Origin: a virus | IMG/VR virus record: IMGVR_UViG_3300027733_000042 | Span: 1-64,000 of that record | DNA length: 64,000 bases | Direction: 5' to 3' (one strand) | Shown here: piece by piece, positions 4,063 through 5,659 of the stretch | How the letters are laid out: every line of letters begins with the position of its first letter | Position numbering within the stretch: position 1 is the stretch's first letter | The notes under the pieces: model-generated | What the model was told of the DNA's origin: nothing | Database searches by the model: none | What the model saw: only the letters and a program-made list of their open reading frames with translations | Position numbers and translations under genes: made by a program

Positions 4063-4440
4063 TTAGCAATCAATCTTAATGAATGAGACGCCATGGATGC
4101 CTCTACCTTTAATACAAGCATATGTATTACTTGTAAAGGTAGACACAAAGATAGGCTCCAATACGTTCATAATCGCATGGTGAACTATCCTGTCTGGATA
4201 ATAAGGCAAGCTAGATATTACTCTTTCCTTACCTTCGAAAATTTTAAATGTCTTGTATTGAGAAGTGGTAAAAGTTTTAAACAAAAGAGCTTCATTCAAT
4301 TTAAGAATGTTTATGTCTTTTTCGTTATCATGTGATATAACACCACTCTTCTTTGTTTTACTTTTCCTAGCAATAACATCTGCTAATTCTAAATTGTCAA
4401 TTGAACAAACATCATTAAATAGATTCCCAACTCGCTTCAC
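4063..4440 (-). pseudogene. Truncated DGR reverse transcriptase (fingers region only)
   Basis: 125 aa. The sequence follows the N-terminal part of DGR reverse transcriptases: GNLFNDVCSIDNLELA at the start, TFKIFEGKERVISSLPYYPDR, then VHHAIMNVLEPIFVSTFTSNTYACIKGRGIHG. DGR enzymes are normally 300-400 aa. Here the frame ends right after the RGIH motif, before the palm domain with the YxDD catalytic site. The downstream frames do not recover that domain. Start is GTG at 4440. It sits next to two variable repeats and a template repeat, so the DGR was once complete. As seen it should be inactive unless a reverse transcriptase is supplied in trans or the sequence has an error. Confidence 0.85.
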
Positions 4441-4458
4441 AAAACTTTCTCAATCACA

Positions 4459-4902
4459 TTATAATTCTTCTGTTATATAATCTTTAAATAAATCTAGGAA
4501 ATTATTACCTAAATATTGCGCTTCTGCATCAGTACCAACATAAAGGGCCGATGGAACATACGTAATAGTATTGCCATAATGAGTACGATAATACGAAAAA
4601 CCTTTCTCTAAATCAAACCAGATTCTCCATTTCCTTTGATTTGAATCAGACCAATTAGGTATCCAATTGGTGAATGACCTCATAGCCTTAACGATTACTT
4701 TAAGCTTAATAAAAGCGATTTCTCCTTTGGTTAAGTTAATAAACTTGTTATTGAAGTTGGTTATATTTAACCCCAAGTATTCACAAGCAATTTCAAAAGA
4801 CTTGATGTCTTTATACGATTTGGGTTTGCTTGTCTGTCTAGCTATTTCAGCTAATTGGTCATCAGTTAAGGTGATTGACATACCATTGATATCGATTTTC
4901 AT
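4459..4902 (-). CDS. DGR variable target protein 1
   Basis: 147 aa. N-terminal KIDINGMSITLTDDQLAEIA is a strand-turn-helix segment typical of small phage proteins. The C-terminal half holds a variable region (codons at 4602-4546) reading GFSYYRTHYGNTITYVPSA. Its nucleotides differ from the template repeat at 5028-5087 only where the template has A. DGR targets are usually ligand-binding C-type-lectin or Ig-like displays; this short protein has no obvious lectin motif. Its A-rich leader (TAAAAATAAATG) fits Bacteroidota translation starts. It is intact, unlike the second target. Confidence 0.8.
   Translation of the reverse strand: MKIDINGMSITLTDDQLAEIARQTSKPKSYKDIKSFEIACEYLGLNITNFNNKFINLTKGEIAFIKLKVIVKAMRSFTNWIPNWSDSNQRKWRIWFDLEKGFSYYRTHYGNTITYVPSALYVGTDAEAQYLGNNFLDLFKDYITEEL
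4546..4602 (-). repeat. DGR variable repeat 1 (VR1)
   Basis: Aligns without gaps to the template repeat at 5028-5087. In the shared core there are eight substitutions, and all eight fall on template A residues in the minus-strand orientation. This is the signature of adenine-specific DGR mutagenesis. Confidence 0.9.
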
Positions 4903-5027
4903 TTATTTTTATTTTATTGATTTAACCTTTGCTTTAATAGTTGCGTTCTCCGAAGATACTAACACCTAACTAAATTATGTAATTTTTTACCATGCTGGTA
5001 AGGTCTGTGCCGTTATGTTTTAGCAAG

Positions 5028-5087
5028 TTGCTGATGGAACATTCGTATTAGTATTGTTATAATTAGTATTATAATACGAAAAACCGC
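5028..5087 (-). repeat. DGR template repeat (TR)
   Basis: A non-coding copy of the variable region between the two target genes. Read in the target frame it is full of AAT and AAC codons (GFSYYNTNYNNTNTNVPSA), as typical templates are, so random change at A can reach many amino acids. It is flanked by about 90 nt of A/T-rich sequence on the target-1 side and has stop codons shortly after the homology ends. It presumably formed the template RNA read by the reverse transcriptase. Confidence 0.9.
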
Positions 5088-5110
5088 ATCGTGTTTGACA
5101 CACAACCTTT

Positions 5111-5659
5111 TTATATGTAATATGCTTTATATTCTTCCAAAGCTATCTTAGCGCAATGTACCGCTAAATCGTTAGATTTTAGGCAAAGGGCTGATGGAAC
5201 ATCCGTAGCAGCATGGCGATAATCAGTAACATAAGACGAAAAACCGCCCTTCATTCTCCACCAATTCCAATACTTGTATTCATTGGAGTTTTCCCAATCT
5301 GGATACCACCCTTCATTTAGTGCTTTTATTATTACCTTAAGCTTTTTAAATGCTACCTCATCCTTTGTATCACTTGATGTGAAGACACTCTTAGAATCGA
5401 TATTAAGGACACTGCAAGCATCCAAAAACGATTTAACCTTACTTCTGATATCCAGAGGTTGTTTGAAAAACTTTTCAAGTACTGATTTTTGGTCATTATC
5501 TGATGCTTTAAACATTTCATCCACTTCTGATTGAGTTAACTCAATTTCGGTTGAAAATGGATTCCGTTTAGCATATTCCTATATTTTAGATTTCCAACCA
5601 GAGCAAGCAACATTATAAATTTGTTTAAGATTGTCTCTGGTAATAATTTGTTTTGACAT
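5111..5659 (-). pseudogene. DGR variable target protein 2, interrupted by an amber codon
   Basis: From ATG at 5659 the frame reads 26 codons (MSKQIITRDNLKQIY...), meets TAG at 5581-5579, then continues open in the same frame for 155 codons to 5111. The joined protein would be 181 residues plus the amber position, with a helical N-terminus and a C-terminal variable region GFSSYVTDYRHAATDVPSA. A restart at ATG 5524 would give 137 aa. Other genes here end in TAG and I see no tRNA with a CUA anticodon, so reassigned amber is unlikely. The gene is probably disabled or N-terminally shortened. Confidence 0.75.
5188..5248 (-). repeat. DGR variable repeat 2 (VR2)
   Basis: Aligns without gaps to the template repeat at 5028-5087 over the core. 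There are eleven substitutions and every one is at a template A. VR1 and VR2 carry different changes, so they were mutated independently. Confidence 0.9.

Follow-up and report, generated by a model that had tools for sequence, protein, structure and literature searches.

A phage DGR with two hypermutated targets and a reverse transcriptase truncated at a thyA remnant

Does a DGR cassette whose reverse transcriptase (RT) is a stub still diversify its targets, or do its repeats record an activity that has ended? The question is raised by the first 64,000 bases (1–64,000; hereafter the window, to which coordinates refer unless another record is named) of a linear virus record of 90,786 bases (90.8 kb; G000). 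The record is incomplete, a fragment of a probably larger genome, and the phage that carries the cassette is Immutovirus-related, T4-like and of Bacteroidota. An earlier sequence-only reading of the window had described A-directed hypermutation of two targets beside an RT that ends before its palm domain, leaving a choice between a system that is recently dead and one that is driven in trans. For comparison, we used the cassettes of L003, L004 and L180, which come from the phage of G001/G002/G022, and that of a further sister, L005.

The template repeat and its two targets

The cassette lies on the minus strand throughout and runs in the order target 2 (5659–5111), template repeat (TR), target 1 (4902–4459) and RT ORF (4440–4063). 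The TR core (5031–5087, 57 nt) contains 20 A among its 57 bases, and it is at these bases that the VRs depart from it: VR2 (5191–5247) differs at 11 positions and VR1 (4548–4604) at 8 positions within the homologous core, all of them template A, the only other differences of VR1 being the first two core bases, at the edge of the homology. The total of 19 changes given by the sequence-only reading is thereby reproduced, and simple arithmetic places the chance of 19/19 differences falling on template A at (20/57)^19, or ~2e-9. Within the target frames the changes occupy codon positions 1 and 2, with a single exception at position 3 in VR1. Both the confinement of TR/VR mismatches to template adenines and the location of the VRs in the 3′ part of their target ORFs, with non-silent changes, are those of a DGR, the ORF of target 1 being intact and that of target 2 broken upstream of its VR by an amber codon. 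Both VRs are derived from the local TR through A-directed change, and the DGR in the window is real, with two targets hypermutated from one template. When the TR, its As left free, was run against the entire record, the TR, VR1 and VR2 alone were recovered; no further VR was found in the 90.8 kb, the next best place having 13 non-A mismatches.

The TR is part of a putative TR RNA that includes the non-coding region downstream of it (4926–5110, minus strand, 185 nt). This region shares 94% identity with its counterpart in L003, as against 74–75% in the neighbouring coding DNA, and across the same 185 nt the identity of the window to L003, L004, L180 and L005 is 86–94%.

Target 1 (T-c) is an intact, VR-bearing, phrog_11581-like protein of 147 aa that is 69% identical to the target of L003. 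Its AlphaFold model (pLDDT 88) consists largely of helices and has a short hairpin at the VR. A structure search of the PDB with T-c gave no match at E≤0.001 and the corresponding search of a viral library returned uncharacterised phage proteins only, while close relatives were found neither by a single-sequence scan in IMG/VR nor, among named phages, by tblastn. In many cassettes, this target family is present as two tandem copies. Together with a 23-nt leader, target 1 of the window (4441–4925, minus strand) fills the exact interval that separates the conserved TR spacer from the RT start codon.

Target 2 (T-b), a small VR-bearing gene of 182 codons, is homologous to the intact T-b of L003 and L005. 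The amber codon that the sequence-only reading had assigned to it is present, with TAG read directly at 5581–5579 (codon 27, counted from the ORF start at 5659), where it replaces a codon that specifies Glu in both L003 and L005. Recoding of TAG was considered and rejected, since TAG ends 4 of the 48 long ORFs of the phage and the sisters carry Glu, not Gln, at this position. The amber is most simply explained as a plain nonsense mutation, and an internal start could in principle still yield the end of target 2 that bears the VR.

The RT stub and the joint with thyA

The RT ORF (4063–4440, minus strand) begins with GTG in place of ATG, encodes ~119 residues of an RT N-terminus followed by six unrelated residues, and terminates with TAA. 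It is 78–79% identical to residues 1–119 of the 322-aa RT of L003, and its match to 80 viral loci likewise spans residues 1 to ~119 only. The intact sister RTs continue with YCLKIDI...FYPSIDH, IGNYLSQ and YADD, all of which are missing from the stub, and no RVT_1 palm domain was detected within it, in line with the earlier description of an RT that ends before the palm. Stub and sister RTs match phrog_1423, and the sisters carry the SQ motif and adjoin TR and VRs; judged by motif and neighbourhood, the stub may belong to the DGR RT clade. In an intact sister, the gap between TR and RT is too small for an accessory protein (Avd or HRDC). Polymerisation by an RT depends on the catalytic motifs; a stub that lacks motif 3, the SQ motif and the YADD motif would be unable to polymerise, and no new variants would be expected to arise in cis. 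Judged from its sequence, the cassette is very likely dead in cis because the catalytic motifs of the RT are missing, and with neither YxDD nor (I/V/L)GxxxSQ it represents a former rather than a complete DGR. The search for a second RT that had been proposed on the basis of the sequence was run on the 90.8-kb record with RVT_1 and with the RT of L003, and was negative.

A frameshift or a sequencing error in the RT was rejected as the cause of the truncation, since the downstream DNA is without the other ~200 RT codons in every frame and instead encodes ThyA. Raw reads that restore the RT frame, named earlier as a possible refutation, are inapplicable because the catalytic part is absent in any frame. 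The sequence-only reading was right about the truncation, but overlooked that the stub is joined to the 3′ end of thyA and that ~200 RT codons are gone from the record. RT homology ends within 4080–4092 (minus strand), at 4091–4092 in nucleotide comparisons with five independent RT loci and at 4084 in protein comparisons. The switch from RT to thyA homology takes place within about 70 nt, of which ~65 nt at the joint have no clear match to RT or ThyA. The peptide encoded there in another frame resembled ThyA by eye, but received no support from tblastn.

The thyA remnant is a 64-aa ORF (3844–4038, minus strand) whose homologue is the 3′ end of a thyA gene that is intact in a relative, G018. 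Positions 4023–3847 encode the C-terminal ~59 aa of ThyA, which are 41% identical to ThyA of Flavobacterium phage immuto and around 50% identical to several IMG/VR phages, in which thyA is long and uninterrupted; the Pfam family Thymidylat_synt matches the remnant at E=0.0098. No ThyA match at E≤0.001 was obtained in the record, where the C-terminal ~60 aa alone are present and the rest of the protein, as a complete catalytic domain with the active-site Cys, is missing. In addition, the record contains no ThyX that could replace ThyA.

The original state of the site is preserved in G018, a 207-kb record whose terminase is 74% identical to that of the window phage and which has homologues of 67 of the phage's 87 ORFs in conserved order. 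Positions 175288–176224 of G018 hold the homologues of window 7216–7016, 7009–6698 and 6708–6277, directly after which stands an intact 374-aa thyA (176221–177345). Their window counterparts lead into two small ORFs, after which come the DGR block and the final sixth of thyA. Downstream, the thyA remnant is followed by one small ORF and a thioesterase, and the intact thyA of immuto by two small genes and a thioesterase. Thus, an intact thyA stands at the cassette site in the phage's lineage, and the DGR block, comprising target 2, TR, target 1 and ~119 RT codons, stands where the 5′ five-sixths of thyA would otherwise lie. Immuto and G018, which belong to the same phage lineage and share the neighbouring genes, have an intact thymidylate synthase and no DGR, the opposite of the window; no RT was found in G018, and the TR gave no significant match there. 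By contrast, just 6 of the 87 ORFs, three of them pieces of the cassette, have a match in a DGR phage of the donor type (G022, 124 kb). Since G018 is without a DGR and G022 shares so few ORFs, the cassette is foreign to the window lineage.

Timing of the loss and alternative readings

We consider it likely, with a probability of roughly 0.8, that the DGR was acquired horizontally and recently inactivated, its RT being cut at the thyA joint. A cassette of the Bacteroidota-phage RT family, which is also found in crAss-like phages, would most likely have arrived horizontally. At or after its arrival, illegitimate recombination or deletion would have fused the RT at codon ~119 with thyA, of which the final ~60 codons were kept, probably destroying both genes and removing the catalytic two-thirds of the RT. 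The amber in target 2 would then represent an additional lesion, and the TR and VRs would be fossils of recent activity. The cassette was active recently and is now most probably dead.

Several features bear on the timing. VR2 is unchanged at the 37 non-A sites of the TR, and the homologous part of VR1 likewise shows no non-A change. At one site the TR of the window has C and that of L003 has T, and both window VRs carry C, which indicates that homing took place after the two lineages had split. The RT stub has a dN of 0.15 and a dS of 2.1, with synonymous sites saturated. Arithmetic on the three pairwise dN values assigns ~0.09 to the window branch, a value intermediate between the L003 (0.06) and L005 (0.105) branches and therefore indicative of a stub that has not yet drifted, showing purifying selection without an excess on the window branch. 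Because the VR/TR pairs are free of non-A changes, the TR RNA is 94% identical to that of L003 and the stub bears the mark of purifying selection, the inactivation appears to be recent, and of the two outcomes between which the sequence-only reading had wavered, recent death is the better reading.

If the RT-less DGR were still working, it would have to be served in trans by an RT from the host, a resident prophage or a co-infecting phage, and we regard this reading as unlikely. Such activity would be consistent with the intact region of the TR and its spacer RNA, which shares 94% identity with G022/L003, where the RT is full length, as well as with the intact ORF of T-c and the frequency of related RTs in Bacteroidota genomes; moreover, the 96-kb record G021 yielded a related VR-bearing target but neither an RT nor a TR. 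However, the window record is itself without an RT, none of the bacterial genome loci compared has an equally close TR, target 2 is broken by the amber, and the literature consulted gave no natural example. The conservation of the TR RNA, on which this reading leans, is explained equally well by recent death. Quite improbable is the stronger proposal that targets and TR without an RT constitute a stable non-autonomous DGR, with mutation supplied in trans by RTs from prophages or co-infecting phages whose TR RNA is nearly identical.

An assembly origin of the RT–thyA joint is also improbable. The record is an assembled environmental contig and the joint has been seen once, an exact-pattern scan of IMG/VR having found it in no second contig, such that a metagenomic chimera would be conceivable. 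Yet both flanks of the block are syntenic with G018, and a chimera would require two wrong joins exactly at thyA; the thymidylate synthase remnant directly precedes a small ORF and the thioesterase, a gene order that is also found in immuto, and the block contains three further intact parts. Finally, a working DGR RT might be encoded in a part of the genome outside the record, with the present cassette as its satellite target site: the record is linear and incomplete, remote VRs are possible for DGRs, and in G022 a fourth VR-like match is placed ~46 kb away from the RT. We think this very improbable, given that the pairing of a TR with an RT stub resembles a former complete cassette rather than a remote target and that no such RT was found in G018, the syntenic relative of 207 kb.

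Related cassettes and other features of the record

Inactivated DGRs have been known since 2012, and the window cassette is a further example. The cases in Ruminococcus gnavus, Acaryochloris marina and Bacteroides sp. 9_1_42FAA resemble it in that the RT is destroyed and intact VR/TR pairs show A changes only, which the authors took as evidence of very recent inactivation (Schillinger et al. 2012, PMC3521204). There, however, the RT was lost through nonsense mutation, an insertion element or a frameshift, whereas in the window its 3′ part is missing from the point where it is joined to a metabolic gene of the phage, and the window DGR resides in a phage and has two adjacent targets. A literature search linking DGRs with thyA found no relevant publication. 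Members of the RT family occur widely in the genomes of Bacteroidota and in crAss-like phages, and the RT of L003 is 51–58% identical to those of the crAss-like cr115_1, cr53_1 and crAssphage LMMB, whose DGRs are intact and have different targets and backbone (PMC7290462).

The sister cassettes of L003, L004, L180 and L005 have homologous targets, TR RNA and RT, but a full-length RT (with one in-frame TAA in L005) and an unrelated phage backbone. The usual layout of the family is target(s)-TR-RT; the sisters show the order targets-TR-RT-target, compared with target-TR-target-RT in the window, such that target 1 follows the RT in L003 and lies between TR spacer and RT start in the window. An RT is nearby in 65 of 81 target-bearing loci, many of the others ending near a contig edge. 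Among the related RT loci, 76 of 80 are intact, three are cut by contig ends and one (L005) has the in-frame TAA, so that a truncated RT is exceptional.

The locus offers a dated series of events, with a site that is empty in a relative, the arrival of a DGR in a different phage lineage, the cutting of its RT at a defined joint, and VRs that have yet to erode. It suggests that phages gain and lose DGRs through recombination, at a price that can be a metabolic gene, and, because another phage has a near-identical TR RNA next to an intact RT, it provides a natural test case for the driving of an RT-less cassette in trans.

Further observations concern the related records. In the RT of L005 (5001–5972) the TAA occurs shortly past YADD and is followed by an ATG and the remaining frame, and the gene may be decayed or split. 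The target in G021 (L177, 4556–5071) is a candidate second RT-less target, and the fourth VR-like repeat of G022 is located at 122478–122536 (L264), ~46 kb from the DGR cassette. The RT of crAss-like cr115_1 (L002, 3325–4347) reads through several in-frame stops, as expected for a stop-recoded phage. In the window record, ARAGORN predicts tRNA-Met, tRNA-Met and tRNA-Asp only. The phage also encodes a tmRNA (37367–37752, plus strand; Rfam RF00023, 94 bits), likewise detected by ARAGORN, for which the predicted tag, DEKSTFTFEDAMSFVGADYAVSA, is unusually long.
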